In this document: piece after piece, positions 10,767 through 38,840 of the stretch
How the letters are laid out: the number at the start of each line of letters is the position of its first letter
Position numbering within the stretch: position 1 is the first letter of the stretch
From: Clostridium sp. DSM 17811
GTDB taxonomy: Bacteria; Bacillota; Clostridia; Clostridiales; Clostridiaceae
Assembly (NCBI RefSeq): GCF_018861905.1
Contig: NZ_JAHLDU010000022.1
Coordinates: forward strand, 1-62,616
DNA: 62,616 bases
Direction: 5' to 3'
Translations under genes and position numbers: made by a program
Notes under the pieces: model-generated
The model's input: the letters and a program-made list of their open reading frames with translations, nothing else
Databases searched by the model: none
Told to the model about the DNA's origin: nothing

Positions 10767-11046
10767 AAAAAAAAGACCTCTTCCCATTGGGGCGAAAAGT
10801 CTATCGCGGTACCACCCATTTTTATATCTTCATTTTATAACGGTGTATAATTAATATACACCGGCACGGCTTACCCTATATGGTTTATATATTATATATA
10901 AACCATATAATTTCAGCTTACAACTCAAGGGTGAGTTTCAACATTAACCATTTATGGGTTTACACCGTCCCCACTCTCTAAGAATATGAAGAATGTCTAC
11001 TTTCCCTATCAAAGTTTTCACAATTTTCAAATTTATTTCCATGTTT
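10767..11046 (-). promoter_or_regulatory. T-box leader controlling ilvB-ilvN (probably leucine-specific)
   Basis: On the minus strand a leader of about 280 nt carries the hallmark elements. These are AGAGAGTGGGGACGG of stem I (complement near 10965-10979), a stem III hairpin (GGTGTATA-TTAAT-TATACACC, about 10840-10862), the T-box bulge GGGTGGTACCGCG (about 10805-10817) and a terminator hairpin with a U-run (10767-10802). In the likely specifier loop TGAAACTCACC, the codon CTC followed by A (complement of 10933-10935) is the best fit, so uncharged tRNA-Leu should cause antitermination. The specifier assignment is less certain than the T-box itself. Confidence 0.9.
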
Positions 11047-11143: not shown

Positions 11144-12181
11144 TTACCTTCCATTTTCTATAATTGAATAAATTAACTGAGGTATATTTTTTAAAGATGC
11201 CTGTTTAATAACCCCACCAATGTCATAGGCTACCTTTGGCATTCCGTATACAACACTTGACTTTTCATCTTGACCTATAGTATAAGCCCCTCTTTGCTTC
11301 ATTTTCATAAGACCTTTTGCCCCATCATAGCCCATTCCCGTTAGAATAACTCCAATGGCTGCACTTCCTGCTTTCTCTGCAACTGAATTGAATAGTACAT
11401 CTACTGATGGGCAATGTCCATTCACCTTATCACCAGTAGAACATTCCACGTAATAATTATTTCCACGACGCATTAATTCCATATGTCTATCTCCTGGTGC
11501 AATAAGAATTTTCCCTGGAAGAACTATATCACCAGTTTCAGCTTCCTTCACATCCATTAGGCAAAGATTATTTAACCTATCAGCATACATTTTTGTAAAT
11601 ACAGGAGGCATATGTTGTGTTATTAAAATACCAGGCATATCTATAGGAAATCCCTTAACTACTTCAAGAATAGCTTGTGTTCCACCTGTGGATGCACCAA
11701 TAGCAATTATTGTATCACCGCTTCTTGATCTTATTTTATCAGTACGCCTCTTATTTATAATGTCTTTTTTGATATTTCCCACCTTAGCCATTGAAGCGAT
11801 TTTTATTTTTATAATTAATTCATTTATAAAAACTTCCTTGCTGCTACCATTTATTGAATTAATTTTTGTAACAAAATCTACTGCACCAGCATTCAAAGCA
11901 TCAAAAACATTATCACTTACGGCACTTACTACCACAACTGGTATAGGATATTGAGGTATAAGCCTTTTCAAAAATTCAATACCATTCATCTTTGGCATTT
12001 CTACATCTAAAGTCATAACATCCGGCTCAAGCTCTATTATTTTATCCCTTGCCTGGAATGCATCCCCTGCAGTTCCAACTACTTCTATACCCCTATCTGC
12101 CCCTATTCCTCTAGCTATCGTTTCTCTAAAAAGCAGTGAATCATCGACAACTAACACCCTTATTTTTTTTAATATACTCAT
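11144..12181 (-). CDS. cheB: chemotaxis methylesterase/deamidase response regulator
   Basis: 345 residues. An N-terminal receiver has VLVVDDSLLF and phosphoacceptor Asp59 in TLDVEMPKMNG. A linker leads to a C-terminal CheB methylesterase domain with the Ser-His-Asp triad: Ser164 in AIGASTGGTQA, His190 in ITQHMPPVF, and the Asp in GVILTGMGYDGAKG. Phosphorylated CheB removes methyl groups from receptor glutamates for adaptation. It is the last gene of the chemotaxis operon, 6 nt after cheR, its functional antagonist. Confidence 0.95.
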   Translation of the reverse strand: MSILKKIRVLVVDDSLLFRETIARGIGADRGIEVVGTAGDAFQARDKIIELEPDVMTLDVEMPKMNGIEFLKRLIPQYPIPVVVVSAVSDNVFDALNAGAVDFVTKINSINGSSKEVFINELIIKIKIASMAKVGNIKKDIINKRRTDKIRSRSGDTIIAIGASTGGTQAILEVVKGFPIDMPGILITQHMPPVFTKMYADRLNNLCLMDVKEAETGDIVLPGKILIAPGDRHMELMRRGNNYYVECSTGDKVNGHCPSVDVLFNSVAEKAGSAAIGVILTGMGYDGAKGLMKMKQRGAYTIGQDEKSSVVYGMPKVAYDIGGVIKQASLKNIPQLIYSIIENGR

Positions 12182-12187
12182 TATTCC

Positions 12188-13000
12188 CTATCCTTTCCTA
12201 TAAACAGCTGGCATAATATATTTATAATTAGTTTCATTTTTATTTACGGACTCAGAATGACCTAAAAAAAGATAACCGCCTATTTCAGTCATGTCATAAA
12301 ATTTCTTTATTAATTCCATCTTTGTTTTTGGCTCAAAATATATCATTACATTTCTACAAAATATAACATGGAACTTTTTTTTAAAAGGAAAAATTTCAGT
12401 CATCAGATTAAAATTTCTATATATTACTTCATTCTTTATTTCCTGGCCAATCTGATAATTTTCATCATCGACTTTACTAAAATATTTAAGTCTCCAATAT
12501 TTAGGTATTGTATCTACAGCCTCGCTTGAATAAGCACCCATTTGTGCTACTTCTAGTACCTTTTGGGATATATCTGTAGCCAGCACTTTAGTATTCCACA
12601 TAGGCTTTTGATTTCCAAAATAATCTGCAATTATCATGGCTAGGGTATATGGTTCCTCACCACTAGAACATCCTGCGCTCCATATTCTTAAATCTTTATT
12701 TTTACAGGTTGACTCTAAGTAATGCATAACAGTATCCCTAAAATAATTAAAATGCTCAACTTCTCTCATAAAATAAGTATGATTAGTAGTTAACTTGTTT
12801 ATAAGTAGACTAATTTCATTTCCTGAAGGATCATTAAAAACGAATTTTAGGTAATCCGAAAAATTAGTAAATCCTTTTTCTATAATCATATTGCTAAGGC
12901 GACCCTCTATAAGAAGCTTTTTTTCTGTAAGGTTGATTCCATAATTTGCTTTCATATAACCTGTAAGTTCTTTAAATTCGCTTTCCTTTAATTTTATCAT
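12188..13000 (-). CDS. cheR: chemotaxis receptor methyltransferase
   Basis: About 270 residues from the ATG at 12998-13000 (AAAGGTGAT at good spacing). The adjacent ATG at 13001-13003 is nearly as likely, and an ATG at 13028 has no SD. CheR uses SAM to methylate receptor glutamates. The N-terminal helical CheR_N domain is followed by the SAM-binding domain with IWSAGCSSGEEPYTLAM, then TDISQKVLEVA and VIFCRNVMIYFEPKTK. The C-terminus has GYLFLGHSES. It lies between the second MCP and cheB in the operon. No TPR extension and no NWETF-type pentapeptide system is evident. Confidence 0.93.
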   Translation of the reverse strand: MIKLKESEFKELTGYMKANYGINLTEKKLLIEGRLSNMIIEKGFTNFSDYLKFVFNDPSGNEISLLINKLTTNHTYFMREVEHFNYFRDTVMHYLESTCKNKDLRIWSAGCSSGEEPYTLAMIIADYFGNQKPMWNTKVLATDISQKVLEVAQMGAYSSEAVDTIPKYWRLKYFSKVDDENYQIGQEIKNEVIYRNFNLMTEIFPFKKKFHVIFCRNVMIYFEPKTKMELIKKFYDMTEIGGYLFLGHSESVNKNETNYKYIMPAVYRKG

Positions 13001-13071
13001 CATATCACCTTTATTTTTATTAAAAACCATGGTCTATATTAGAACTTCGAACCATGGTCTTAATATATTTT

Positions 13072-15294
13072 TTAGTATTTACCAAAATCACTATTGCTAA
13101 GTGATATTCTAGGTTTATCTTTAGTTGCTGCTGCCTCAGAATGTGCTAGGGATTTGTTTTTAGACGAATTTATATTTTTCTGAGATTTTAAAGCTACTTC
13201 ACTATAAGATGTCATGTCACTTCTTTTTAATCTAAACTTTCCTACCATATTTTTAAGCATAGATGCTTGACTTGAAAGTTCTTCACTAGCTGCTGCACTT
13301 TGCTCTGCAGTTGCAGAATTAGTTTGAACAACATCTGAAACTTGCTCTATGCCCTTATTAATTTGGTATATTGCAGTCGCCTGTTCATTTGAAGCTGCCG
13401 CAATCTCTCCAACTAAAGTTGCAGCTTTCGATACCCCTATAACTATTTCATTAAGAGATTCCGCAGTATTATTTGCAATTTTCGTTCCAAACTCAACTTT
13501 CTTAATAGACCCTTCAATTAAATCTGCAGTTTGCTTAGCTGCATTAGTGCTTCTTGCTGCTAGATTTCTTACTTCCTCAGCAACTACCGCAAATCCTTTA
13601 CCATGCTGCCCTGCTCTTGCAGCTTCCACTGCAGCGTTTAACGCTAACATATTGGTCTGGAATGCAATATCATCAATAACCTTAATTATTTTGGATATAT
13701 TAGAAGATGACTCATTTATATCCTCCATAGATTTAAGCATCTCTTTCATGTGAGAATTTCCAAGCACAGCTCCATTCTTAGCATTAAGTGCAAGTTCATT
13801 TGCTTGGCTAGCATTGACTGCGTTTTGCTTAGTCTGAGCTGCTACCTGCGTTATTGATGCAGTTAATTCTTCTATAGAACTTGCTTGCTCTGTTGTTCCC
13901 TGAGACAATGCCTGGCTTCCATCTGAAACTTGGTTTGAGCCTGCTGATACTTGGTCTGCAGCATTATTTATTTCCGTAAATACTTCATTAAAAGATTGAA
14001 CTATAAGGTTTAATGCATCCTTAATTTGTGCGAAATCTCCTTTATATTCATTGTTTATTGACAATTTAAGATTAGAATTAGACATTTCATCTAATACCTC
14101 TGAAATTTCAGTTACATAAGAAGATAAAGAATTTATAGTATCATTTAATGCATTTTTAATATCTGCATGATCCCCTTTGTAATCTCCATTCATACTTACC
14201 TTTAGGTTACCATTTGCCATTGCCTGAAGTACTGATGATGCCTCTTTAATAGGTTCAATAACAGCATCTAATATATTATTTATACCTTCGACTATGTTTT
14301 TATATCCTCCGTTAAATTTCTGAGCATCTCCTCTTGTAGACAATTTCCCGTTAACACATGACTTTGTTAACATATTTGTTTCTTTTTCAAGATTGTTAAC
14401 CGCAGATACAACGAGAATTAAGCTTTTTGCAAGTACATCCTTATCAGATTTAGGATTTATCTCTACATTAAAATCTCCTTTAGATATACTCTCTGCCGAT
14501 GCTGCATTTTCACGTATATTCTCAACCATTTTCTTAAACGCAGCCATTAAGGTTCCTGTCTCATCCTTTGACGATTCAGTAATTACTATATCAACATCAC
14601 CAATTGCAATTCTATCCGCATAATCAACTAACTTCTTTATTGGTTTAGTAATAGTTCTTGCTATTATTACTCCTAAACCAATGGCAAGTGTCGCTCCAAG
14701 TATTATAAGTATTAACATCAATTTTATTGAATTTGCTGCAGTCGCTGTATTTGAAGCCGAAGCTGTTTTTGCAAGAGCAATCTTTGCTTCTGACAGCTTT
14801 TTCATATTTTGTGCAAGTAAATCATTTGTTTTTACACCTTCACTATTCATCAAAACTATTGCCTGGGCATCCTTGTTTTGTTTTGCAAGTAATATTACAT
14901 CAGCTGCTACTTTCTCATAAGCGAGTACAGAATCATCAGTATTTTTTATAAGTTCTTTACCTGCTACAGTTAGAGTAGTTGTTTTAAATTCATTAGATTC
15001 TTTAGTGAAACTTGCATTATTATCGTTTATTTGTCTCTCATACTCCAGCATCTCTTTTTCATTAGACGACATAATCATATCTCTCAAATTTGACCTAGTA
15101 TTTTGAAAAACATGATTCATATTGTAAAGATTACTCATTGGAACTGTCATTTTTTCATACATTTCAGTATCCTTGTTCAATATAGTATTTAAATTAATAA
15201 TCCCTGTTATTCCAATTATTATAGCAATAATTGCCACCATAAAAAATCCACATAATATTTTTGTGCCTATTTTAAAATTGTTAAATAACTTCAT
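13072..15294 (-). CDS. methyl-accepting chemotaxis protein with tandem HAMP-like repeats
   Basis: 740 residues. TM1 is about 12-34, a four-helix extracellular segment runs to about 188, and TM2 is about 189-212. A HAMP is followed by further HAMP-like units; MANGNLKVSMNGDYKGD and MSNSNLKLSINNEYKGD are two successive copies. The C-terminal signalling domain has the kinase-contact tip AFQTNMLALNAAVEAARAG. The tail ends SLSNSDFGKY, almost the same as the other operon MCP. The SD is GGGGGAATAAT. Its signalling domain is nearly identical to that of 18014-20389, indicating a duplication. The ligand is not predictable. It is encoded between cheW and cheR. Confidence 0.93.
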   Translation of the reverse strand: MKLFNNFKIGTKILCGFFMVAIIAIIIGITGIINLNTILNKDTEMYEKMTVPMSNLYNMNHVFQNTRSNLRDMIMSSNEKEMLEYERQINDNNASFTKESNEFKTTTLTVAGKELIKNTDDSVLAYEKVAADVILLAKQNKDAQAIVLMNSEGVKTNDLLAQNMKKLSEAKIALAKTASASNTATAANSIKLMLILIILGATLAIGLGVIIARTITKPIKKLVDYADRIAIGDVDIVITESSKDETGTLMAAFKKMVENIRENAASAESISKGDFNVEINPKSDKDVLAKSLILVVSAVNNLEKETNMLTKSCVNGKLSTRGDAQKFNGGYKNIVEGINNILDAVIEPIKEASSVLQAMANGNLKVSMNGDYKGDHADIKNALNDTINSLSSYVTEISEVLDEMSNSNLKLSINNEYKGDFAQIKDALNLIVQSFNEVFTEINNAADQVSAGSNQVSDGSQALSQGTTEQASSIEELTASITQVAAQTKQNAVNASQANELALNAKNGAVLGNSHMKEMLKSMEDINESSSNISKIIKVIDDIAFQTNMLALNAAVEAARAGQHGKGFAVVAEEVRNLAARSTNAAKQTADLIEGSIKKVEFGTKIANNTAESLNEIVIGVSKAATLVGEIAAASNEQATAIYQINKGIEQVSDVVQTNSATAEQSAAASEELSSQASMLKNMVGKFRLKRSDMTSYSEVALKSQKNINSSKNKSLAHSEAAATKDKPRISLSNSDFGKY

Positions 15295-15308
15295 TATTAT
15301 TCCCCCTT

Positions 15309-15803
15309 TTATACTGTTTCAATAATTTTATCTAATTCTTCATCATTAAGTAACTTGTCACAATCAAGCAAAAGCTTAACTTCATTTCCTACTTTCCCTA
15401 TTCCCCTAACATAACGATTATGAAAACCTGTTTTCATTTGTGGTGGTGGAACAATATTACTATCGTCTATATTAATTACTTCAGCAACATTGTCCACAAT
15501 GAGTCCAACAGTTGTTTCCTTAATGTTAATTACAACTATGCATGTCCTATCATTATAATCTTTTGGCTCTTTTCTAAATCTAAGTCTTACATCAATAACT
15601 GGTATAATTTTTCCACGAAGATTTATAATCCCTTTTACATAATCAGGTAATTCAGGTACCTCTGTTATCTCCTGTATACCAATTATTTCTGTTACAAACT
15701 TAATTTCAATACCGTAAGACTCTTTACCAACAGAAAATGTTAAAAATTTTCCCCTTTGAGTATCCTCAGCTGTTTCCATAATTTCTTCTAAAATTTCTGC
15801 CAT
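15309..15803 (-). CDS. cheW: chemotaxis coupling protein
   Basis: 164 residues from the ATG at 15801-15803 with AAAGGTGG upstream; an in-frame GTG four codons earlier overlaps that SD. It is a single CheW domain (KFLTFSVGKESYGIEI, then VPELPDYVKGIINLRGKIIP and VDNVAEVI). It bridges CheA and receptor tips at the membrane array. It is 23 nt downstream of cheA and 14 nt upstream of an MCP gene, inside the operon. Confidence 0.95.
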   Translation of the reverse strand: MAEILEEIMETAEDTQRGKFLTFSVGKESYGIEIKFVTEIIGIQEITEVPELPDYVKGIINLRGKIIPVIDVRLRFRKEPKDYNDRTCIVVINIKETTVGLIVDNVAEVINIDDSNIVPPPQMKTGFHNRYVRGIGKVGNEVKLLLDCDKLLNDEELDKIIETV

Positions 15804-15826
15804 TTTTTTAACCACCTTTTTTTGTT

Positions 15827-17911
15827 TTATCTATCTAAAATTCCATTTACATCTATAATAAGACTTATATTACCATCTCCAAGAATTGTGCATCCAGCAA
15901 TTCCCTTGGCTTTTTTAATGTAAGTAGGTAGAGCCTTAACTACAACCTGTTGTTCTCCAATTAATGAATCTACAAATAAACATGCTGATTTTGTATTATC
16001 CTCAATTAAAATCATGATCCCATTAGTTGATGATGTCACTTTTGTATTTATATCAAATATTCGATGAAGTCTATATATGGGGTATGCTTCTCCTCTTATC
16101 ATTATCATTTCATTTCCATCACTATCTGCAATCACTTCATTCTCTTTTGGTTTAAATGACTCCTTAATTGATGTAATAGGTATTGTATATTTAGACATTC
16201 CAACAGCTACCTCAAGTCCATCAATTATTGCGAGTGTTAAGGGGATCTTGATAGATATTATACTTCCGCGTCCCATCACGCTTTCAATTGAAATGGATCC
16301 GCCAATACTATCAATGTTTTTTTTAACAACATCCATCCCAACTCCACGTCCTGAGTATTCTGTAACACTTTCATTAGTAGAAAATCCAGGTAATAAAATA
16401 TTCGAGAAAATTTCTTTATCCGTTAGTTCCTCCTCAGGTCTTGTAACTAATCCTTGAAGTTTAGCCTTTTCATATATTTTGCTTTTATCAAGACCACGTC
16501 CATCATCACTAACAATTATAAATACATCACCGCCAGCATTTTTCGCCTCCAAGGTAATTTTTCCAATTGGAGGTTTGCCGGAAGCTATTCTCTCCTCTTT
16601 GTCTTCTATACCATGATCTAATGAATTCCGGACTAAATGCATAAGTGGATCTGATATATGATCAATTATATTTTTATCTACCTCTGTCTCCTCACCTATA
16701 ATCTCAAGTTCAACATCTTTATTTAGCTTTTTACTCATATCTCTTACTATTCTATTCATTTTGTGAAAAGTCATAGAGACTGGCACCATTCTAATAGACA
16801 TTACAACATCTTGTAATTCATTAGTAAGTTTTCTAAGTTGCCTAGAGGCTTTATTAAAACTATCTAGGGAAAGGCCCTCTAAATCCGGATTTTTTGTAAC
16901 CATTGCCTCTGATATAACAATTTCACCTACTAAATCTAAAAGCATATCTAATTTAGAAATATTTACACTTATTATACTTTGTTGTTTTGATACTTTAGTA
17001 ATATGCTCAACTTCTTTATTTGTATCTATTTGTTCTATTTGAATTGATTCTTTATCCCCCAAAAGCTCTACATTCTCTAAAGGCCCTTCAAGTTGAATTA
17101 TGCTTTTTGCCTTTACCTTTTTAATTTCTTCTGGATATTCTTCCACTTGAAGAAGTTCCAAATCTCTTAAGAAAATAATTTCATTTAGTTTTTCTGCAAT
17201 TTTTTCCTGCTCTATAGAGGTAGCAAATCCTATTAAAAAACCATTTTTACGGATAGCCTCTACACTTTCATTACTCTCTATTATATCTTCAGGAATGTAG
17301 TACATTTCTGATACTATATCCTTAAGATTATGAATTACAGTATATGCGCGTACATTTTCCATCTCACAACCATCTTCATAAAAAATTCTTACAGTGTATT
17401 TCTGTCTAGCCTCTAAATCCTGATTTGCATAAGTACTTATATAAAATTTAGTGTCTTCCTTTGGCTGTGGTGCTACTTCCTCTAAAGGAACACTATTAAC
17501 TTCTTTCATAGTAATTAGAAGATTTGAACTTTTTAGCACTAATTCTTCACTAGATCCGTCAGCATTCTCATCATTTTCAATTTTTGAAACCTCATCTTTT
17601 ATAAAGTCAATACCTAAGAGTACTAAATCAAATAAGCTTTCAAAATCTATATTTACTGCTTTATTTTCTCTAATAAAGTAAAATAAATCCTCAACCGAAT
17701 GTGCTAAAACAGATATATTATTGAACATCATCATAGCTGATGAACTCTTTATGGTATGCATTATTCTGAAAATTTCATTTATTGATTCTGTATCAATGCT
17801 TTTATTTTTTTCACACTCAATACTAATTTCCTCAAGTTGTTCCATTAGTTGCGTGGCTTCAAAAAGATATATTTCAAGCATTGGTTCTCTAGTTGTTCCA
17901 TCATCTGACAT
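15827..17911 (-). CDS. cheA: chemotaxis histidine kinase
   Basis: 694 residues. P1 (HPt) carries the phosphorylated His52 in IMHTIKSSSAMM. A less conserved P2-like region of about 130-260 is followed by P3 dimerisation (SVNISKLDMLLDLVGEIVI). The P4 ATPase has N-box HLVRNSLDHGIED, G1 DDGRGLDKSK and G2 GRGVGMDVVKKN, and P5 is CheW-like (IDGLEVAVGMSKYTIPI, then IRGEAYPIYRLHRIF). It phosphorylates CheY and CheB in response to receptors. The ATG at 17909-17911 lies 6 nt after an uninterrupted run of ten G that forms the SD, a possible slippage site (see findings). Confidence 0.95.
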   Translation of the reverse strand: MSDDGTTREPMLEIYLFEATQLMEQLEEISIECEKNKSIDTESINEIFRIMHTIKSSSAMMMFNNISVLAHSVEDLFYFIRENKAVNIDFESLFDLVLLGIDFIKDEVSKIENDENADGSSEELVLKSSNLLITMKEVNSVPLEEVAPQPKEDTKFYISTYANQDLEARQKYTVRIFYEDGCEMENVRAYTVIHNLKDIVSEMYYIPEDIIESNESVEAIRKNGFLIGFATSIEQEKIAEKLNEIIFLRDLELLQVEEYPEEIKKVKAKSIIQLEGPLENVELLGDKESIQIEQIDTNKEVEHITKVSKQQSIISVNISKLDMLLDLVGEIVISEAMVTKNPDLEGLSLDSFNKASRQLRKLTNELQDVVMSIRMVPVSMTFHKMNRIVRDMSKKLNKDVELEIIGEETEVDKNIIDHISDPLMHLVRNSLDHGIEDKEERIASGKPPIGKITLEAKNAGGDVFIIVSDDGRGLDKSKIYEKAKLQGLVTRPEEELTDKEIFSNILLPGFSTNESVTEYSGRGVGMDVVKKNIDSIGGSISIESVMGRGSIISIKIPLTLAIIDGLEVAVGMSKYTIPITSIKESFKPKENEVIADSDGNEMIMIRGEAYPIYRLHRIFDINTKVTSSTNGIMILIEDNTKSACLFVDSLIGEQQVVVKALPTYIKKAKGIAGCTILGDGNISLIIDVNGILDR

Positions 17912-17917
17912 AAATAT

Positions 17918-17927
17918 CCCCCCCCCC
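17918..17927 (-). repeat. 10-G homopolymer forming the cheA ribosome-binding site
   Basis: Ten consecutive C on the plus strand (G on the mRNA), immediately before ATATTT-ATG of cheA. It is the longest G/C homopolymer noticed in the window, which is notable at this base composition. Confidence 0.9.
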
Positions 17928-18013
17928 TGCCTTGCGTCGAATTATTACATTCTTTTTAATTAACCTTTTCAATTTTTTTCTTCATCCTTCATAATAGATT
18001 AATAATAATTGTT

Positions 18014-20389
18014 TTAATATTTTCCAAACTCTTCATTACTCAATGATATTTTGGGTTTGTTTTTAGCTACTGCCACCTCATCATAAGCAAGTGATTTATT
18101 TTTAAAACGAGTTTGATTCTTTCGTGATCCTAAAGATACTTCATTATAATTTGAAGCCATTCCTCTTTTTAGATTAAATTTCCCTACCATGCTCTTAAGT
18201 AATGAAGCTTGGCTTGATAGCTCCTCACTAGATGCGGCGCTTTCCTCTGCAGTTGCTGAATTAGTTTGAACAACATCTGAAACTTGCTCTATGCCCTTAT
18301 TTATCTGATATATCGCAGTTGCTTGCTCATTTGAAGCCGCTGCTATTTCCCCAACTAAAGTAGCCGCCTTAGATACACCTACAACTATTTCATCAAGAGA
18401 TTCTGCAGTATCATTAGCAATTTTTGTTCCATTCTCCACTTTCTTAATAGACCCTTCAATTAAATCTGCAGTTTCCTTAGCTGCATTAGTACTTCTTGCT
18501 GCAAGATTTCTTACTTCCTCTGCTACTACCGCAAACCCTTTACCATGTTGTCCTGCTCTTGCTGCTTCAACTGCAGCGTTTAATGCTAACATATTAGTTT
18601 GAAAAGCAATATCATCAATAACTTTAATAATTTTTGAAATATTAGAGGATGACTCATTTATATCCCCCATAGATTTAAGCAGCTCTTTCATATGAGAATT
18701 TCCAAGTACTGCTCCTTCTTTAGCATTAAGTGCCAATTCATTTGCTTGACTAGCATTAACTGCATTTTGTTTAGTCTGAGCTGCTACTTGTGTTATTGAA
18801 GCAGTTAATTCTTCTATTGAGCTTGCTTGTTCTGTGGTTCCCTGTGATAAGGCCTGACTACCATCAGATACTTGGTTAGATCCAGATAAAACCTCATCAG
18901 ATGCGTCAGTAATACTTCCTAATAGTTCATTAAAAGCCTCTAAAGTATGGTTCAGAGAATCCTTTATAACTAAATAACTACCTTGATAATTACCATTCAT
19001 ATTAACAGCTAAGTCTCCATTTGCCATTTTTTCCAATACACCGGCAGCCTCATTAATTGGCTCTTCCATAGCATCCAGTGCCTTATTAAATCCATCTATA
19101 ACTTCACGATATCCACCCTTAAATTTTGAGGAATCCCCTCTTGTCTCAAGATCACCTCTTGATGCGCAGTCTGCTATCATACCTGCTTCTGCTACAAGAT
19201 CTTGAATTGTTGACATCATTACTATCATTGAAGGCATTAATTCATCGTTCTCAGACCTTTTGCCAACACTTATAAGTCCTTCAAGCCCTTTTATATCGCC
19301 AACAGATATTTCCACTAACAATTTTACTACAGCTGAAATCCTAGCATGAACAGAATTAATATCTTCTGCAAAGTCCTTCATAGCGCCTTTATAAGAGCCC
19401 GTCATACTCAAAGTATGATCATTTAATGCCATCTTTGCTAGTACTCTTCTAGATTCATTAATTGGCTCAGTAATTGTATCAAGAGTACTATTTACTCCTT
19501 CTACTATTTTTCTGTAATCCCCACTGTGTTTAGATATGTCCGCTCTTGTATCTAAATTACCCGCTACTGCTGCATCTGCTAGCATATTTGCATCACTTGT
19601 AAGTGATTTTATAGCTACAATTATTTTTTCAAATACTTTTGCTAAATCCCCCACTTCATCCTTAGTATTTATATCTACCTCAACATTTAGGTTACCTTCT
19701 GAAATATTATCTGCAGCTATTAGTAGTTTTTTAATTGAATTTCCTATTATCCTTGATATAAAATGCCCAAGTAATAACGATAAAATCACTGACAATGCAA
19801 CGCTAATAATAAGTATTACTATTATTCGATTAGAAGAATTTTGTGCATCCTTAGTTAGTTGACTTCCAATTGTTAAATTCTGCTCTATATTGTCATCAAT
19901 ATTTTTTGCTGCTATTTCCCCGAGTGTTCCAGCTTCACTCTTTAATAATATATAGGCTTCTGCATTTTTATTATTAATAGCTAATGTTATAACCTTATCC
20001 CGAGAAGTGTTATAATCACTTATTGATTTTTCTAATTTAGCATAGTTTAAAAGTTCATCTTGAGTTTTTTCAGTTTTTTTAAACTCCGTCATATATTTCA
20101 CTATTATTTCATCATTTACAACTATTTGATCTTGATATTTTTTATAATTAGTATCCTTAGTTTCTATTATAAGGTCCCTTGCAACTGTTCTAGTTTTTTG
20201 AAATGCTTCAGATATAAACCCTAATTCACCTTGTGAATTCCCATAATTAGTTATGATATTTTCCGATTTTGCTTGTGTTGCCTTAAGGCTAAAAATACCA
20301 ACTATCCCTATTGAACCCGCAAGTACTGCAACTATAATAAATCCAAACGTTAACTTTTTACTAAGTTTCATATTATAAAACCACTGCAC
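18014..20389 (-). CDS. methyl-accepting chemotaxis protein with extended poly-HAMP region
   Basis: 791 residues from a GTG start with GAGGGGG eight nt upstream. TM1 is about 12-33, a four-helix-type ectodomain runs to about 190, and TM2 is about 191-213. Several HAMP-like units fill about 215-525, marked by repeated GDLETRGD/GNLDTRAD and NGDLAVNMNGNYQG motifs. The signalling domain (about 525-755) contains AFQTNMLALNAAVEAARAG and the tail ends SLSNEEFGKY. The signalling half closely matches the MCP at 13072-15294, with an identical 41-nt block at 18261-18301. It lies between cheY and cheA. The ligand is unknown. Confidence 0.93.
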   Translation of the reverse strand: MQWFYNMKLSKKLTFGFIIVAVLAGSIGIVGIFSLKATQAKSENIITNYGNSQGELGFISEAFQKTRTVARDLIIETKDTNYKKYQDQIVVNDEIIVKYMTEFKKTEKTQDELLNYAKLEKSISDYNTSRDKVITLAINNKNAEAYILLKSEAGTLGEIAAKNIDDNIEQNLTIGSQLTKDAQNSSNRIIVILIISVALSVILSLLLGHFISRIIGNSIKKLLIAADNISEGNLNVEVDINTKDEVGDLAKVFEKIIVAIKSLTSDANMLADAAVAGNLDTRADISKHSGDYRKIVEGVNSTLDTITEPINESRRVLAKMALNDHTLSMTGSYKGAMKDFAEDINSVHARISAVVKLLVEISVGDIKGLEGLISVGKRSENDELMPSMIVMMSTIQDLVAEAGMIADCASRGDLETRGDSSKFKGGYREVIDGFNKALDAMEEPINEAAGVLEKMANGDLAVNMNGNYQGSYLVIKDSLNHTLEAFNELLGSITDASDEVLSGSNQVSDGSQALSQGTTEQASSIEELTASITQVAAQTKQNAVNASQANELALNAKEGAVLGNSHMKELLKSMGDINESSSNISKIIKVIDDIAFQTNMLALNAAVEAARAGQHGKGFAVVAEEVRNLAARSTNAAKETADLIEGSIKKVENGTKIANDTAESLDEIVVGVSKAATLVGEIAAASNEQATAIYQINKGIEQVSDVVQTNSATAEESAASSEELSSQASLLKSMVGKFNLKRGMASNYNEVSLGSRKNQTRFKNKSLAYDEVAVAKNKPKISLSNEEFGKY

Positions 20390-20453
20390 AGTCTATTCCC
20401 CCTCAATTATCCATGTTTGTGAAATTTTTCACTTTTAAAGGCTGATAATTCTA

Positions 20454-20807
20454 TTAGAATTTACTAAAAGCTTTTGTAATTGTTTCCTGAGTAAAAGGTT
20501 TTATTACAAACCCCATTGCACCTGAAATTATAGCTTCTCTAACAATCGACTCTTGCCCCATAGCAGATATCATAATAACTTTAGCATTTTTATCAAACGC
20601 CTTTATATTCTTTAATGCGGCAAGCCCATCCATTATTGGCATTGTAATATCAAGAGTTATGATATCCGGTTTAAGAATCTTATATTTTTCTATCGCTACT
20701 AATCCATTTTCAGCCTCTCCAACTATTTCGAATCCACACTTTTCAAGCATACTTTTCAATGACATCCTCATAAATGTTGCATCATCTGTAATTAAAACTC
20801 TCTTCAT
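20454..20807 (-). CDS. cheY: chemotaxis response regulator
   Basis: 117-residue single receiver domain. RVLITDDATF carries the acidic pocket, TLDITMPIMDG the phosphoacceptor Asp53, MISAMGQ the conserved Thr/Ser position (Ser) and VIKPFT the Lys. The start ATG at 20805-20807 is preferred because GTGGGGGATGG is correctly spaced; the ATG three codons upstream abuts the SD. Phospho-CheY binds the flagellar switch. It is the first gene of the seven-gene operon; no cheC, cheD or cheX is present here. Confidence 0.93.
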   Translation of the reverse strand: MKRVLITDDATFMRMSLKSMLEKCGFEIVGEAENGLVAIEKYKILKPDIITLDITMPIMDGLAALKNIKAFDKNAKVIMISAMGQESIVREAIISGAMGFVIKPFTQETITKAFSKF

Positions 20808-20921
20808 AAAATCCATCCCCCACTAAATATTTATTATACTTTCAACATTTTTTCCTTTTTATTGTATATATTTCTACACAAAATACATCCATATTAATTG
20901 CAATTAACTACTATTACTCTT

Positions 20922-20949
20922 ATTATATAGTTATACTGACATATTTCAA
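20922..20949 (-). promoter_or_regulatory. probable promoter of the chemotaxis operon
   Basis: On the minus strand TTGAAA (complement of 20944-20949), a 16-nt spacer and TATAAT (complement of 20922-20927) lie about 115 nt upstream of cheY. It looks sigma-A-like; no sigma-D-type site (TAAA/GCCGATAA) was seen. Confidence 0.5.
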
Positions 20950-21212
20950 CATATATCCAAACCTAAATTCCTTTATAATTCATCATTTGTTTACAACTTC
21001 TTATAATGATTTACCATCATCATATTCACTTATTCAGTAAAATATATTGAAAATTATAATTATTTTTATATTTTTTTACATTTGTTCCTAATTTATGTTT
21101 GAAAGTGTTTTCCATTATAATGCATGTAATCGTTTTAAACCGATTGCATTTACTAATATATATAGGAACTTTTGTTAAATCCCCCTCTGTAGTGCTGAAA
21201 TATTATAATAAA
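20950..21212. other. gene-free AT-rich stretch upstream of the chemotaxis promoter
   Basis: No ORF, RNA motif or clear repeat was recognised between the che promoter and the long terminator of the next gene. Confidence 0.3.
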
Positions 21213-21308
21213 AAATAAGCAAGTTAATTAAAATGGCACCTACAGACTAAACACTTTAAAAAGTATATTAGCTATAGGTACCAGTTTAAATTTTCTGCTT
21301 ATTTTATA
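21213..21308 (-). terminator. long imperfect terminator hairpin of the MCP gene at 21.3-23.5 kb
   Basis: On the minus strand AAATAAGCA...GGTACCTA pairs imperfectly over about 30 bp with TAGGTGCC...TGCTTATTT, followed by a T-run. It begins at the stop codon of the MCP gene. Confidence 0.6.
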
Positions 21309-23482
21309 TTAAATGCATTTACAATTTCATTTAGATTGCCAGCTGAATGCGAAAGTATTTTTGATGCTTGTTCAACTTGTTTTGTTTGTTTTAAAGTAGA
21401 ACTTATTAATTCTGAAACTATTTCACTCCTATCACTATTTTTAGAAGTATCCTTATCAATCTTAGCTGCAAATTCACCAATATTTTCTTTTATCACACTT
21501 ATTTCATCTGCTTGAAGTTTAATTAGCTTTGTAATTGACTGAACATCAATAGTTACAAGTGTAATTTCGCTTTGAATCTTGTTAAAAGCTTTCATAGATT
21601 CAGAGACATTCCCACTTTCTTCCTCTATCTTTGTGCCTATGCTACGCACATTATTTATTGTAATTTCTGTTTCTTTTTGAAGTGAGGAGATAAGTCTTCC
21701 AATGGATACTACAGCTTCTGCGGATCCACTTGCAAGTTTTGATACCTCTTGTGCAACAACATTAAACCCTTTGCCAGCTTCACCTGCACGAGCAGATTCT
21801 ATGGATGCATTTAATGCTAACATATGCGTTTGGTTACTAATACCACTTATTACACTAGTTACTTCTGTAATTTCCTCTGAATATTTTTGTAAAACGCTTA
21901 TACTCTTAAGTGTATCTTTCATACCAGCTTCTAAATCCTTCATGCTAATAATAACATCTTTAGACACCTGCGTACTTGAATTAGCATAATCATTAGTGTC
22001 TTGTATTTTAACACTTACATTTGTAATTAATTCATTCATATCATTAATTGAGTCTGAAATATGGTTAAAATTATCATTTGTACCTTTGAAGATTTCATTT
22101 TGTTTCTTTGATGAAGATAAAAAATGAGATATAGATTTTTCTATGGTACTCGTATTTTTTTGAACATTTTCAGACAATGCAAGCAGTGAATAAGCAGACC
22201 CAGATGAATCTTTTGAAGCTCTTCCCATTCTCTTAATAATTGTCATCTGATTATTAACGAATTTATTAAACCATGTCGCAAGATCTCCAATTTCATCATT
22301 TGATAGTTTACCAACTCTAAGCGTTAGATCCCCCTCACCTTCAGCTATTTCTTTCAAAATAGAAATGGTTGAATTTAATGGTTTAACTACTAATTTTTTT
22401 ATAGTGTAACTTAAAAATAAAGAGATAAGAATCCATACCAATACTAATCTTGGCAGTGCATATGAATTATTAGATAATGACAATAAATAATTTCCAAATA
22501 TAAATACTGCACTTACAAGTCCTGATAACAGTGGTAACTTAAAGTTTAAGCTCTTAAAGTTATAAATTTCAGAAATATCACCTTCACACATCATACCCCA
22601 CGTTTCACCACAATTAGGAGGTTCTATAATTATACCTTTTCCACCAACTAATATATGTCTATAATCAGGATAGCCTGGCCATGTATTTAGATTTTCTCCA
22701 TTTTCAACAGTATTTTTAACTCCAAGATGTAATTCTGAACTTTCAGGATCATTAAAAATAATTTCAAATTCTGTGTGTTTTTCTATTTTTATACTACCCC
22801 ACTTTTTTGTTTTTATACCTTGCTTTAAGTTCTCTCCTAAAGTAAAAGTATCGTCTTCAAAACGACTTCTAGAAATCGCTGTACCCATTGGAACTTTTCT
22901 ATTTGATTTCAGCATAAAAATGTAATTATCTCCGGATTCCTTATAGATATGTGTATCCTCATCTTGTATAACATCCGACATTACATCATTAGGAATTCTA
23001 CCACAAAGTACACCTTTTCTACCATTATGTTTATTCTCAAAAGGCAAGGAGAACATTAAAGTAACCTCATCAGAAAATTCAGAATTAAAGTTTCCAATTT
23101 GCTGAGTATCAATGTCAATGTAGGGACCATACATCAGAGGTTTATTTTCCATTCCCTCAATAAAATTAGGAAGAGATTTCATTTCTTTTTTCAGATTCAA
23201 TGTTGACGTAGATATAATATTAACTCCATCCTTATTAAGGATGAATAATTCTGAAAAATCTTGAAATCGCAACCTTTTTTTCTCTAATAATTTTGTTAAT
23301 TCCTTAAAATCAATTTCATTTTCATCAAAATAAGCCAAAAGGGAGTCCCTTGTAAGTTCAAGCGCAATCCAAGTATCTTTAAACCAAGTTTCCAAAGCTT
23401 TTTTCCTTCCTTTAGCAATCCCTTCGAATATTTTTTCTGAATTTATTCTCAATCTTTTATTGTGAAAATTTGAAAAAATCAT
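21299..23482 (-). CDS. chemoreceptor-like MCP with an apparently cytoplasmic N-terminal sensor
   Basis: 727 residues. Residues 1-320 are hydrophilic with no N-terminal TM and resemble a Cache-like fold ([18 protein letters not shown], then [11 protein letters not shown]). Two TM helices come only at about 322-372 ([37 protein letters not shown]), followed by HAMP, helices and an MCP signalling domain with [20 protein letters not shown] (His-Met where Asn-Met or Asn-Leu is usual). This topology would put the sensor in the cytosol and the TM hairpin in the middle. The SD is GGGGGGATATT. It is monocistronic, just upstream of the che operon on the same strand. Confidence 0.85.
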
Positions 23483-29540: not shown

Positions 29541-31202
29541 TTACATTTCTATATCCTTCCAACTTACATTAAAACTAGTTTTCCAGAGAATTACATTAGC
29601 TATTAAAAGCACTATTCCATAGACACATATAAATATTATATTATTTCTAATAGCTATATGAATTCCAGCAAATATGCCAAGTAGCAAGCTAGTTACTATC
29701 GATGGCAATATAAGTTTTCCACTATCTGTTGTTGCAAATTTTACACTAAACGGCATTGCCTTATTTGATAATTTAAAATACACTAATGATAATATTAATA
29801 GAACTAAAAACATTACAACTAAGTCTATAATTATCAATGGACCTTTTAGTATTAAGAAAACAATAGAATCCAATAAATAAAGTGGTATTATAAGTTTAAA
29901 TATAGTTCCTTTTACTGCTCCTTTTAATATTACTCCCGGATTCTTTATTGGTAATACCTTGTATATAAAAGCTCCCTTAAAACTATCACTATTATTTATA
30001 AATGCTGTACAAAAACATAATAAGAATATACTTATATATATTAATAAATGAATCTTTCCACCAAAACCATTTTGAATATTATCCAGAAGCGATTTATCAT
30101 TTCTGTCCATAAATACAAATAGAACTGGCATAAACACTGCCATTGCAAGGGTTGGATATACCTTCAGCTTTAGGCTTCGTTCTGTAGCTATCATATTTTG
30201 AGTGAATTTAAACATACTCTTTTCAATATTATCCTTGCATACAATCCCTGCTATAAATTCTTTTCTATTTTCACTCCTTCTGCTTACAGTTCCTCCTTTA
30301 GCATTTAATTTTTGAAGGTTCTTTTCAAAATATGGTACTACCTTTTTTAAATAAAGCACAATTAAAACAATTGGCCCCACTACCGCAAGTACTAGTAAGT
30401 ACATTAATATAGGTTGCTTATTACCATCTATCAATATTCCAAATGGTGCTGCAAACCACATGGATGGTAATATTACATGCCAGAGCTTAGGTATATATTC
30501 ACTATTCATATTAGAAACATTAAAAACTCTAGCAACTAATTGATATCCAAATGCAAATACAAAAGCTAATAATATTTGGAAATAGTTTATTATATCCTTT
30601 AGTTTTTCTCCATCAAAAAGCTTTAAAACTATGGTATATAATAAAGATGTTAAAGTTATAACTATTAAAACCGAAAGAATATTTTCTATAAAAAATATTA
30701 CGAAAAATAAAGCCCCATATTTTATTGTACCAATAACAAGGGGGATTAAATTTAATGACAGCGAGAGGCCTGCTAAATATATACATATATGAGTGGTTTT
30801 TGCTGCATTAAAGGTTTTATTATCAATAGGTTTTGGTAATAATATACTTTTCTCGGTTACATCTAATAATACTGCTGAAAAGTCAGATATCATAAGTGAA
30901 ATCATCATAAATAAATTTATACCTATTACAATATTTGTAGCTTTCATTGCAGGCATATCACTATTCATTATTAGACCAATAAAAACACTTATGAAAGCAT
31001 TAAACATAAGCAAACTCAAATAATTATTTTTATCGCGGCTCTCGCCACTCTTTTTGTTTTTTCCCATGACATTGCTTACCCGCCTGCCATCCATTGTTAA
31101 TTTTACCTTTAGAATCATTCTCATAACTTTATAGTTAACTCCTAATTTTACATATATAAATTGGAATTTATCCAATATCTTAAGAACCGTGAAATTTTTC
31201 AT
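29541..31202 (-). CDS. large ABC transporter permease, 12-TM type
   Basis: 553 residues with roughly 12 hydrophobic segments in two halves and a cytosolic loop of about 60 residues (about 290-350). It is similar in layout to ABC-2 permeases encoded next to single ATPases in clostridia. The ATG lies 2 nt after the ATPase stop, so the two are translationally coupled. The N-terminus VKLTMDGRRVSNVMGKNKK is cytosolic. The substrate is not deducible. Together with the ATPase it should form one exporter. Confidence 0.8.
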   Translation of the reverse strand: MKNFTVLKILDKFQFIYVKLGVNYKVMRMILKVKLTMDGRRVSNVMGKNKKSGESRDKNNYLSLLMFNAFISVFIGLIMNSDMPAMKATNIVIGINLFMMISLMISDFSAVLLDVTEKSILLPKPIDNKTFNAAKTTHICIYLAGLSLSLNLIPLVIGTIKYGALFFVIFFIENILSVLIVITLTSLLYTIVLKLFDGEKLKDIINYFQILLAFVFAFGYQLVARVFNVSNMNSEYIPKLWHVILPSMWFAAPFGILIDGNKQPILMYLLVLAVVGPIVLIVLYLKKVVPYFEKNLQKLNAKGGTVSRRSENRKEFIAGIVCKDNIEKSMFKFTQNMIATERSLKLKVYPTLAMAVFMPVLFVFMDRNDKSLLDNIQNGFGGKIHLLIYISIFLLCFCTAFINNSDSFKGAFIYKVLPIKNPGVILKGAVKGTIFKLIIPLYLLDSIVFLILKGPLIIIDLVVMFLVLLILSLVYFKLSNKAMPFSVKFATTDSGKLILPSIVTSLLLGIFAGIHIAIRNNIIFICVYGIVLLIANVILWKTSFNVSWKDIEM

Positions 31203-35870: not shown

Positions 35871-37160
35871 TTAAAAACCCAATATTCTAATTAAAGACTG
35901 GAATAATAACACCATAGTTAATGCTATTAAAATAACTATAGTAACCCAACCAACCCAATTTTTAAATTTATTGTTTGTATATTCCCCCATAAGATCCTTT
36001 TTATTTACCATTATCATCATACAGATTAAAACTACCGGTAAAAGCATTCCATTAATCACTTGAGATCCAAGAGAAATCTGAAGTAAGGGTGCACCTGGGA
36101 TTAGAATAATTGCAGCGCCTATAATTATTATTGCTGTAAACAACCAGTAAAATTCTGGTGCTTCTTTCATCGCTTTATCTATACCAGCTTCAAACCCAAA
36201 GGCTTCGCATATGTAAAATGCAGTTGCTAGTGGGAGAATTGTTGCTGAAAATACGGAAGCAACCAAGAGACCAAAGGCAAAGATACTTGATGCTAAATCT
36301 CCAGCTAAAGGCTTTAATGCAATTGCCGCATCCTTTGCCTCATTTATAGAAATACCTTGTTTATTTAAAGTAGCAGCGCAAGCTACAATAATAAAGAAAG
36401 CTACTACAACTGTTACTGTACATCCAAGGATAACATCCATAAGTTCATATTTATACTCAGAGATTTTAATACCTTTTTCTATTACCGAAGACTGCATATA
36501 AAATTGCATCCAAGGAGCAATAGTAGTACCTATTAAACCAATTACAGTACTAATCCACCCAGCATCTATCCCTTCCCCATGAGCACCTTTAAATGAAGGT
36601 ATAGGATTAATTAATGAAGTTCCAATTTGATGCCAGTCTGGGTGAGCGAGGAGTGCAGAAAAAACATAAGAAAGTAAAAATACACTAAATACCAAGAATA
36701 TTTTTTCCACTGATCTATAGGTTCCTTTTACAACCAGTAACCATACTAAAACCACTGCAATTGGCACTGTTATATATTTTGAAAGATTAAACACCTGCAA
36801 ACTTCCAGCAATACCCGCAAATTCAGTGGCAGTATTACCTATATCTGCTACTAATAATCCTAGGAATATAAAGAAAGTTATCTTTACACCAAAATTTTCT
36901 CTTATTAAATCAGCTAAACCCTTTTGAGTAACGATGCCCATTCTTGCATTCATTTCCTGTACTACAAGTAATGCAATGAAGCAGGGAATCAATGTCCAAA
37001 GTAAAAGGTATCCATAGTGAGCTCCGGCCACTGAGTAGGCTGAAATACCACCAGCATCATTATCCACGCTTCCTGTTATTAAGCCTGGACCCACAACTGA
37101 TAGAAACAGCATTAATCCTACCATCCAAGGTTTTTTATTTGAAATTGTTTTTTCATACAT
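35871..37160 (-). CDS. Nramp-related divalent cation transporter, probably for magnesium (NRMT/MntX type)
   Basis: 429 residues, about 11 TM helices of the LeuT fold. The canonical Nramp TM1 DPGN is replaced by SVDNDAGGISAY, and the TM6 MPHN region reads TTIAPWMQFYMQSS, so the metal-selecting methionine motif is absent. These replacements characterise the NRAMP-related magnesium transporters described in clostridia and Eggerthella. The gene follows an M-box-controlled MgtE-domain gene by 16 nt, consistent with Mg uptake in magnesium starvation. The SD AAGGAGGTG precedes the ATG. The specific ion is inferred, not shown. Confidence 0.85.
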   Translation of the reverse strand: MYEKTISNKKPWMVGLMLFLSVVGPGLITGSVDNDAGGISAYSVAGAHYGYLLLWTLIPCFIALLVVQEMNARMGIVTQKGLADLIRENFGVKITFFIFLGLLVADIGNTATEFAGIAGSLQVFNLSKYITVPIAVVLVWLLVVKGTYRSVEKIFLVFSVFLLSYVFSALLAHPDWHQIGTSLINPIPSFKGAHGEGIDAGWISTVIGLIGTTIAPWMQFYMQSSVIEKGIKISEYKYELMDVILGCTVTVVVAFFIIVACAATLNKQGISINEAKDAAIALKPLAGDLASSIFAFGLLVASVFSATILPLATAFYICEAFGFEAGIDKAMKEAPEFYWLFTAIIIIGAAIILIPGAPLLQISLGSQVINGMLLPVVLICMMIMVNKKDLMGEYTNNKFKNWVGWVTIVILIALTMVLLFQSLIRILGF

Positions 37161-37176
37161 ATTAACACCTCCTTAT

Positions 37177-38403
37177 CTAACTAATCTTTCTTTTATTTTT
37201 AAGTAATTCATAAATAATATCATTTATAATAACATTGCCGAGTAACTTCATTTCATGATCCGTAACAGGAATAGCTACAAGATTATATTTCGAAACATTT
37301 TTTATAAGGTCATTAATATTATCTGTATCAAACATTGATTTGAATTTTTTATTCATAATGTCACCTATTTTGCTAGTTGGATCAGATATAATAAGATCCC
37401 GAAGGGAAATGGTTCCTATCAATTTATAATTTTTATCTACTACATAAAGATTTAAAATTTCATCTTCTTCCGGTTTTAATTTCCTTAGAGTTTCAATTAC
37501 ATAATCTATAGTTTCATTGTTTTTAAATGATACGAAATCCGTGCTCATAAGACTACCGACTGCTTTAGAATCATATTCTAATAATTCTCTAATTTCATCC
37601 GAAGCTTCTTTTTCCATGTTATTAAGCAGTTCTTCTACCTTTTCTTTTTCCATATCATCAAGAATATCTGCCGCTTCATCCGCAGGCATGTTTTCTAAAA
37701 CATCTGCAGCTTTATCTGCGGATAGGCTTTCAATAAAACTAACTTGTGCATCTTCTTCCATTTGTTCTAAAACATCCGCAGCCTTTGCATTATCTAGTGA
37801 TGAAAAAATGGTAAGACCCGTTTTAGCATCAAAATCTTCAATAATATCAGCTAAATCAGATGGATGAAGAATGGATAAAGAATCATAGGTTTTCGATAGA
37901 ACAATATTTTCATTAGAAGTTATAATAGCCTCTACATCATTCCATAACATTAGCCTAGCAGGAACTTTAAGCCCTATCATCTTAAGTAGTTTAGCTATTC
38001 CAATTCTCCTTAAAAGTCCATCTACACCTATATCTACCGCAACTACAAAAGCCCCTTTTGCTAAATATGATAATGAAATATCATTTACACGAACTACTTT
38101 TCTTCCATTAACATCTATAATCTGTTGATCCAAAATATGCTTTCTTAAAAACAAGGTATTAGTTGAAGTATATTCCTCTATTTTGTTACATACTATAACA
38201 TACTGACCCTTTTGTTTTGTAACTGAAAAGTATTTAAAGTCATAATCTTTAATTCCACTATTAGTTTTTACTTTTGCAGTTGTAACATGAGGACTTTTTA
38301 ATTCATTTATAACCCCCAGATCATTTAACCTTCCAATAACTTTCATATCTGATGTATATACTTTATTTCCTAAGATTCTACTTAAATAAAAATTATTTTT
38401 CAT
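37177..38403 (-). CDS. free-standing MgtE-type cytosolic domain protein (PRC-barrel, MgtE_N, CBS pair)
   Basis: 408 residues from the ATG at 38401-38403 (SD AAGGAGG); twelve upstream in-frame codons lack an SD. There is no TM segment. PRC-barrel-like segments fill about 1-155 (FYLSRILGNKVYTSDMKVIG). An MgtE_N superhelix runs about 165-275 (HPSDLADIIEDF, with repeated KAADVLEQMEED, KAADVLENM, EAADILDDM). A CBS pair follows at about 280-400 (MSTDFVSFKNNETIDYVI, VVDKNYKLIGTISLRDLI). In MgtE these domains sense cytosolic Mg and gate the pore, but here the pore domain is missing. It is co-transcribed with the Nramp-like transporter, so it may gate or sense for it (inference). Confidence 0.9.
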   Translation of the reverse strand: MKNNFYLSRILGNKVYTSDMKVIGRLNDLGVINELKSPHVTTAKVKTNSGIKDYDFKYFSVTKQKGQYVIVCNKIEEYTSTNTLFLRKHILDQQIIDVNGRKVVRVNDISLSYLAKGAFVVAVDIGVDGLLRRIGIAKLLKMIGLKVPARLMLWNDVEAIITSNENIVLSKTYDSLSILHPSDLADIIEDFDAKTGLTIFSSLDNAKAADVLEQMEEDAQVSFIESLSADKAADVLENMPADEAADILDDMEKEKVEELLNNMEKEASDEIRELLEYDSKAVGSLMSTDFVSFKNNETIDYVIETLRKLKPEEDEILNLYVVDKNYKLIGTISLRDLIISDPTSKIGDIMNKKFKSMFDTDNINDLIKNVSKYNLVAIPVTDHEMKLLGNVIINDIIYELLKNKRKIS

Positions 38404-38541: not shown

Positions 38542-38767
38542 AAAAAAAACTCTCCACAACGAAGTGAAGAGATTAAAGTGCGTAATAAATAAAGCCGCAA
38601 AAAATAGATCATCCCCACTCGTTGAGTTTTAGCACTGTACAGCTTAGAGATTTGATACTCAGCTACATTAAGTAAAACCTTAATCCGGTAATACCTGCTG
38701 ACCCATTGGCGTCTCTCGACATTTCTGGGCAGTAGCGTGTGTCTTATACAGTAACCTCACCTAACAA
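38542..38767 (-). promoter_or_regulatory. M-box (ykoK) magnesium riboswitch with terminator
   Basis: Reading the minus strand, the conserved M-box core is visible: GTTAGGTGAGG at the 5' end (complement 38755-38765), GCTACTGCCCAGAAATGTCG, GACGCCAATGGGTCA, CAGGTATTACCGG and TTAAGG. A terminator hairpin follows (CTCTTCACTT/GTGGAGAG, 38550-38571) with eight T (38542-38549). Known M-boxes bind Mg2+ and terminate transcription when magnesium is plentiful. It should control the MgtE-domain gene and the Nramp-related transporter. Confidence 0.92.
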
Positions 38768-38811
38768 GAATATTAAATTGTATTTTTAATTAATATTATT
38801 CTTATAATACC

Positions 38812-38840
38812 ATAATATGCATCAAGTCCAATATTGTCAA
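38812..38840 (-). promoter_or_regulatory. promoter of the M-box transcript
   Basis: TTGACA (complement of 38835-38840), a 17-nt spacer and TATTAT (complement of 38812-38817) on the minus strand, about 45 nt before the M-box core. Confidence 0.65.

Follow-up and report, generated by a model that had tools for sequence, protein, structure and literature searches.

The M-box operon and its two proteins

The window analyzed here, i.e., the whole stretch of 62,616 nucleotides from contig NZ_JAHLDU010000022.1 of Clostridium sp. DSM 17811, encodes on its reverse strand what looks, from its sequence, like an Nramp-related bacterial magnesium importer (NRMT, gene nrmT), together with a separate soluble protein resembling the sensor of the magnesium channel MgtE, here called the companion. 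The features of the operon are as follows, with residues of the Thermus thermophilus channel (TtMgtE) used as reference numbering and TM standing for transmembrane segment.

38812 to 38840, minus strand: sigma-70-like promoter TTGACA-17-TATTAT, 11/12 consensus match, 37 nt before the M-box
38607 to 38775, minus strand: M-box aptamer (RF00380), full length, 149.9 bits (gathering cut-off, 44), E = 3.9e-34
38550 to 38571, minus strand: terminator-like hairpin plus eight T, between the aptamer and the first gene; likely expression platform
37177 to 38403, minus strand: companion, predicted soluble, 408 aa, with a PRC barrel, a second PRC-like stretch, MgtE_N and a CBS pair
37924 to 38163, minus strand: second PRC-like stretch of the companion, approximately residues 81 to 160, with nine residues invariant among companions
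37567 to 37869, minus strand: MgtE_N of the companion, a Pfam match, with D210, D242 and D246 at the magnesium-ligand positions E59, D91 and D95 of TtMgtE
37186 to 37560, minus strand (outer limit approximate): CBS pair of the companion, with D395 at TtMgtE D247 and L375 at the ATP-stacking F227
35871 to 37160, minus strand: NRMT (nrmT), Nramp-related magnesium transporter by reading frame, PDB match, motifs and hydropathy, 429 aa
37047 to 37064, minus strand: DNDAGG, the TM1 metal-site motif of NRMT, N to G relative to the classical DPGN

The companion frame opens with an ATG at 38403 and its stop codon ends at 37177; nrmT lies directly 3' of it after 16 nt, a gap that contains the ribosome site of nrmT itself, and AAGGAGG precedes both starts. 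An M-box magnesium riboswitch, overlooked in the original prediction, heads the operon upstream of both genes on the same strand, placed 3' of the promoter-like site and 5' of the hairpin (38571-38550). Promoter-like sites are no more numerous in the leader region than in shuffles, so that the promoter candidate owes its support to its position; terminator-like hairpins (two, against a shuffle mean of 1.4) likewise draw their support from position, and the single-strand fold of the leader (z = −1.14) is by itself uninformative. One further M-box occurs in this genome, on another contig, upstream of a gene recognized from its sequence, rather than by a family search, as CorA-like. The order of M-box, companion and directly downstream nrmT is that of the M-box/mgtE-N/nrmT operons described by Shin et al. 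(2014, PMC4072509), and an M-box-controlled magnesium uptake unit is the best explanation of the locus.

The closest PDB match of the transporter is EleNRMT from Eggerthella lenta (7qia, 354.9 bits), with the best MntH at 95.5 bits; by these match scores, a ranking with no tree behind it, the protein is closer to NRMT than to MntH. It carries DNDAGG in TM1 and GTTIAPW in TM6, the same metal-site motifs as EleNRMT, its closest solved relative, and these motifs include all three binding-site substitutions (N to G, A to T, and M to A) that separate NRMTs from classical Nramp proteins (PMC8806188). The original prediction had read DNDAGG in place of DPGN as the mark of an Nramp-related magnesium transporter, and both the TM1/TM6 motifs and the 7qia match bear this out. 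A hydropathy scan gave 10 segments, and the nearest named relative is Clostridium psychrophilum, whose NRMT is 90% identical. As transport by EleNRMT, which also carries Mn2+, is not coupled to protons (PMC8806188), homology suggests that the window NRMT transports magnesium without proton coupling, and the M-box control of the operon supports magnesium as its substrate. In that study, liposome transport was measured on the carrier alone, with no companion mentioned in the portions available to us and with the terms CBS and operon absent from the main text (PMC8806188), whereas the window NRMT has a companion gene.

For the companion, the original prediction of a PRC barrel, MgtE_N and a CBS pair without any transmembrane segment, 16 nt upstream of an Nramp gene, agrees with Pfam, hydropathy and coordinates. 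Pfam places MgtE_N at residues 179 to 279 (94.9 bits) and CBS in two stretches (51 bits in all), and the PRC match is weak (21.7 bits against a cut-off of 21.2) and covers residues 3 to 29 only. A second PRC domain was not called by Pfam in the window companion, whereas two PRC stretches were found in a paralogue from the same genome. Pfam gave no match to the MgtE transmembrane domain in the companion, and since hydropathy shows a single marginal window (1.61), against 10 segments in NRMT and four in the genome's own MgtE, the companion is predicted to be soluble, without a transmembrane domain. The MgtE model TIGR00400 (NCBIfam) scores it at 137.6 bits, below the cut-off of 232.75, and covers only profile positions 21 to 249 of 450; the protein thus has the MgtE_N and CBS pair of an MgtE channel with their ligand acids but neither the C-terminal pore nor the family score.

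We mapped the companions onto TtMgtE (2yvx, 2yvy) by alignment over TtMgtE residues 24 to 250, with an inferred offset that was checked by 12 named residues, and counted ligand columns among 101 NRMT-linked companions. The D95 column contains 100 D and one E, the D247 and D91 columns contain D in 98 and 96 companions, respectively, and the E59 column is acidic in 95. In MgtE, these positions serve the sites Mg6, Mg4 and Mg7, all of which are needed for closure (PMC5882242). The Mg5 residues D226 and D250 are variable (N374 and Y398 in the window companion), but D226 is also absent from this genome's own MgtE, and the loss of Mg5 is therefore not diagnostic. The plug-helix residues E258 and D259 of Mg2/Mg3 have no counterpart, as the companion ends before them. 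Hence, by residue pattern, the companion keeps the N domain, the CBS pair and most sensor magnesium positions of TtMgtE and has lost the pore along with the larger part of the plug helix, with a PRC module placed in front.

ATP contacts of TtMgtE include R187, D188, Y170, N203 and the stacking F227 (PMC5529423). Among the companions, R187 is kept in 89/101, D188 in 80/101 and Y170 in 59/101; the F227 column is L in 92/101, and N203 is N in only 29. We therefore consider it unlikely that ATP modulates the companion in the way that it modulates TtMgtE.

The invariant residues of the companion are concentrated outside the MgtE-like domains. Columns that are at least 97% identical number 11 in residues 81 to 178, which comprise the second PRC-like stretch and a linker, compared with four in CBS2 and one each in PRC1, MgtE_N and CBS1, and D92, Q94, D97, K102, R105, N107, D108, R132 and R133 do not vary among the 100 companions that span these positions. 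This pattern makes the second PRC-like stretch a candidate docking surface. We dropped the RR pair of this stretch as an NRMT-specific docking mark, given that it also persists in most of nine companions that stand alone or are placed otherwise.

Co-occurrence of companion and transporter

The original prediction named conservation of the pair as a check, and the pair is strongly conserved, also where operon linkage is lost. In a sample of 398 genomes from the window's phylum, 37 NRMTs (threshold, E ≤ 1e-60) were found in 36 genomes, and in 37/37 loci a gene with MgtE_N lies just upstream on the same strand. An M-box lies within 5 kb upstream in at least 28/37 of these loci, with at most 56 candidates scored per genome and with one of the nine remaining loci (G333) on a 3.6-kb contig that offers little room. 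Searching the same genomes with the N-terminal region of the companion alone (query A3), we found it in 38/398, i.e., in 36/36 genomes with NRMT versus 2/362 without (G359 and G231, the latter with a companion that runs to the contig end); the co-occurrence is significant by Fisher's exact test (p = 3e-49), a value that ignores kinship. Classical MntH, used as a control (query P0001, same threshold), was present in 60/398 genomes. Of these, 36 had no NRMT, and a single one among the 36 had a companion (G231, at the contig edge). In genomes with a companion, only 2/35 MntH genes lie within 3 kb of it, both on the opposite strand.

The association extends well beyond this phylum. Scanning contigs with 18 NRMTs and taking the best 80 loci of a longer list, we recovered sequences titled Bacteroidales, Omnitrophota, Spirochaetes, Ignavibacteriae, Nitrospirae, Acidobacteria and Deltaproteobacteria, among others, and the companion is directly upstream of NRMT in 68 of these best 80 (cut or split in five of the 68). 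Among the remainder, a single gene intervenes at one locus (L142), and at another (L149) the opposite strand bears a fragment of the companion. In four more the contig leaves no space for it, and six lack an adjacent companion although space is available; each of the latter six genomes (6/6) has a companion elsewhere. Further, an M-box precedes the companion in 3/11 diverse loci scanned, from Clostridium (L082), Acidobacteria (L143) and Deltaproteobacteria (L150).

Loss of linkage is most evident in a sample of 297 genomes around an acidobacterial genome, in which 70 NRMTs occur in 69 genomes and the companion occurs in 69/69. Measured from the companion's N-terminal region, the distance to NRMT is below 2 kb in 38/70 cases and 2 to 12 kb in 11/70, and in 21/70 the companion is far off, with 18 on a different contig and three at a distance of 100 kb or more. 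When the 18 NRMTs with a companion on another contig were rechecked, no companion was present in the fetched surroundings, and 17 of them have over 8 kb of contig on their upstream side; leaving out the one at a contig end (G562), 20/70 loci are clearly unlinked.

Acidobacterial genomes without a full-score NRMT contain a companion in 15/228 cases, with an Nramp gene beside it in 14 and the companion at a contig end in one. All 14 pairs are arranged inversely to the usual pattern, with the transporter gene ahead of the companion gene. Thirteen of these transporters are divergent NRMTs (L183-L188, L192-L195, L197, L199 and L200), 32 to 35% identical to that of the window and with DNDAGG and GTTI[AT]PW; the one searched against the PDB (L193) has EleNRMT as its best match (229.3 bits). 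The remaining transporter (L196) is a more remote Nramp, and its neighbor has a 27-bit companion match.

Because 20/70 acidobacterial NRMT loci are unlinked and yet the companion is kept, operon inheritance alone is insufficient, and we reject the view that the pair is a mere by-product of it as a full account, given retention in 6/6 and 69/69 genomes despite lost linkage. We read a tie that survives both loss of linkage and reversal of gene order as functional dependence, which is not stated in what we consulted of Shin et al. (PMC4072509).

A probable magnesium-sensing subunit acting in trans

Much of the arrangement was described by Shin et al. (2014, PMC4072509), who found M-boxes upstream of Nramp-related genes that they named NrmT, showed that NrmT rescued growth, under magnesium limitation, of a Bacillus subtilis magnesium-transporter mutant without mgtE, yloB and yfjQ, and reported that most NrmT-group loci, many of them under M-box control, include close by a homolog of the cytoplasmic domain of MgtE. 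They speculated that the MgtE-N-like gene serves cytoplasmic feedback regulation or metal chaperone activity (PMC4072509). MgtE and CorA have cytoplasmic gating domains (PMC4072509), which belong to the transporter chain itself. The original prediction had held this modular reuse to be undescribed, a claim overtaken by that study, which has both the arrangement and the feedback idea. The operon of Clostridium acetobutylicum (Ca_c0685 and relatives) has the same three elements, but its MgtE-N-like gene is split into two (PMC4072509), whereas the window has one intact gene; likewise, the published label is MgtE-N-like, whereas the window companion also has a PRC barrel. A PRC barrel mentioned together with MgtE, or with a CBS domain and magnesium, was not found in the open-access papers searched (including, for MgtE, Shin et al.), and companion studies other than Shin et al. 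were not apparent from titles and abstract openings in the open-access NRMT/NrmT literature; both absences are weak. The arrangement and the hypothesis of feedback in trans have thus been known since 2014. The present analysis adds a near-obligate tie that persists between unlinked genes, together with a residue pattern that sets retained positions apart from lost ones; with these, the question raised in 2014 becomes sharper and open to direct test.

We suggest that the companion is probably a magnesium-sensing regulatory subunit that acts in trans on an uncoupled carrier. A fuller proposal, for which we hold the balance to be even, is that NRMT is a two-part system made up of an uncoupled carrier of the Nramp fold and an almost obligatory magnesium-sensing subunit from a gene of its own, which docks via its PRC-like module, so that the N-CBS sensor of MgtE would have been detached from its pore, reused on an unrelated fold, and kept where the genes are apart or their order is reversed. 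Under low magnesium, the riboswitch would permit transcription of both genes, and NRMT, proton-uncoupled by homology to EleNRMT, would import magnesium. The companion would dock on the cytosolic face of NRMT, perhaps via the PRC-like module, and rising cytosolic magnesium would fill the MgtE-type sites, close the companion, and slow or lock the carrier. The same ion would then be read by two brakes, one on RNA and one on protein. A proton-uncoupled magnesium carrier would follow the membrane potential and overfill the cell, and it needs a shut-off; such a device makes physiological sense here because transport by EleNRMT is uncoupled from protons. The tie of the companion to magnesium itself is supported by the M-box that precedes the pair in at least 28/37 loci and that also precedes a lone companion in one genome (G155). 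If this proposal is true, the companion would be, to our knowledge, the first known regulatory subunit for an SLC11-type carrier and a clear example of a single sensing module passing from one transporter to an unrelated one.

Several observations weigh against this proposal. NrmT complements in B. subtilis without a companion, co-expression of the Acidobacterium capsulatum companion gave no further rescue, and the A. capsulatum transporter behaved as a manganese importer, rescuing a manganese-uptake mutant (PMC4072509). A companion that inhibits only at high cytosolic magnesium would explain why rescue tests under magnesium limitation showed no gain. Further, in the sample from the window's phylum, 5/42 companions found by their N-terminal region lack an adjacent NRMT (a single case in each of G000, G003, G155, G231 and G359), and no single frame with both companion and NRMT domains was present in the 36, 80 and 24 loci examined. 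Of the apparent natural fusions, long frames in G355, G683, G581, G550 and others, those retrieved were rejected, being overlapping stop-to-stop frames or, in G355, a frame shorter than first indicated. The idea of PRC docking rests on invariant residues only, since mean column identity is higher in MgtE_N (0.66) than in the PRC-like stretch (0.59). Last, companion and NRMT distances correlate at 0.58 over 98 loci, compared with 0.88 between the two halves of the companion, so the two histories appear only loosely parallel, and either partner exchange has occurred or rates differ. The trans-acting magnesium sensor of the original prediction is partly supported and is the best-supported reading of the locus, with conservation of the pair strongly in its favor.

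Another explanation, improbable in our judgment, is that the companion is a constitutive partner of NRMT, required for stability, folding or membrane assembly or serving as an oligomer subunit, in which the MgtE-like domains are structural and magnesium is not a signal. Both co-occurrence at the genome level and the clustering of invariant residues in the PRC-like stretch, and not in the MgtE_N or CBS domains, fit a docking partner as well as they fit a sensor. However, the ligand columns D91, D95 and D247 rank 33, 14 and 19 of 408 for conservation, and both NrmT in B. subtilis (PMC4072509) and EleNRMT in liposomes (PMC8806188) work without a companion.

A metal-selectivity or manganese sensor, which would shut or license the carrier with manganese or some other cation, not magnesium, as its signal, is less probable still. 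It finds support in the manganese-uptake rescue by the A. capsulatum transporter, encoded next to a companion gene (PMC4072509), and in the Mn2+ transport by EleNRMT (PMC8806188), but M-box control argues for magnesium, both in the NRMT loci of the window's phylum and before the G155 companion that has no NRMT beside it, as well as in the three diverse loci mentioned above. Equally doubtful is a companion that acts as a magnesium buffer or chaperone, or elsewhere in the cell, and that travels with NRMT only via a shared magnesium regulon: chaperone activity is the alternative named by Shin et al. (PMC4072509), and companions without an NRMT beside them do exist, but the companion is rare where NRMT is missing (1/36 MntH genomes and 2/362 NRMT-negative genomes) and is kept where linkage is lost (6/6 genomes and 69/69 acidobacterial NRMT genomes). 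The regulatory subunit acting in trans remains our preferred reading. A chaperone is also unlikely for an ion present at millimolar levels.

Other companions and other features of the window

A second soluble PRC/MgtE_N/CBS protein of 420 aa is encoded in the genome of the window itself (G000:C1, approximately 204.6 to 205.9 kb; L075:2626-3918, minus strand). It has the same domain order as the window companion but K instead of R at the second position of the RR pair, and it lacks an Nramp neighbor. The gene adjoins a cell-wall hydrolase gene (Pfam Hydrolase_2 plus PG_binding_1), a neighborhood shared with G359, which has no NRMT; we take the hydrolase to be SleB-like and a large neighboring gene to be of the YgiQ type. 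In G003 (contig C4; L168:6031-9408), a stand-alone companion is followed by a 648-aa transporter of the amino-acid-permease type (PF13520), and this companion is possibly the same sensor module serving another transporter. The lone companion of G155 (contig C3; L171:4131-5432) is served by an M-box of its own; no transporter gene directly adjoins it, and the same genome contains two NRMT operons. G124 (L073:4606-5983) encodes its companion in two overlapping frames, in line with the published split in C. acetobutylicum. Two of the NRMTs without an adjacent companion (L135 and L136) have a 905-aa gene downstream, presumably KdpD-like judging from its N terminus rather than from a family search.

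Elsewhere in the window, a T-box leader at 10785-11021 (minus strand), which scores 97.8 bits, just above the cut-off of 93, lies upstream of a gene for a thiamine-pyrophosphate enzyme (9112-10722, minus strand) that is acetolactate-synthase-like by our reading of its match. A 553-aa reading frame at 29541-31202 (minus strand) has no Pfam match. A chemotaxis cluster at 11144-23482 (minus strand) encodes a CheB-type protein, a CheA-type kinase and three methyl-accepting receptors.

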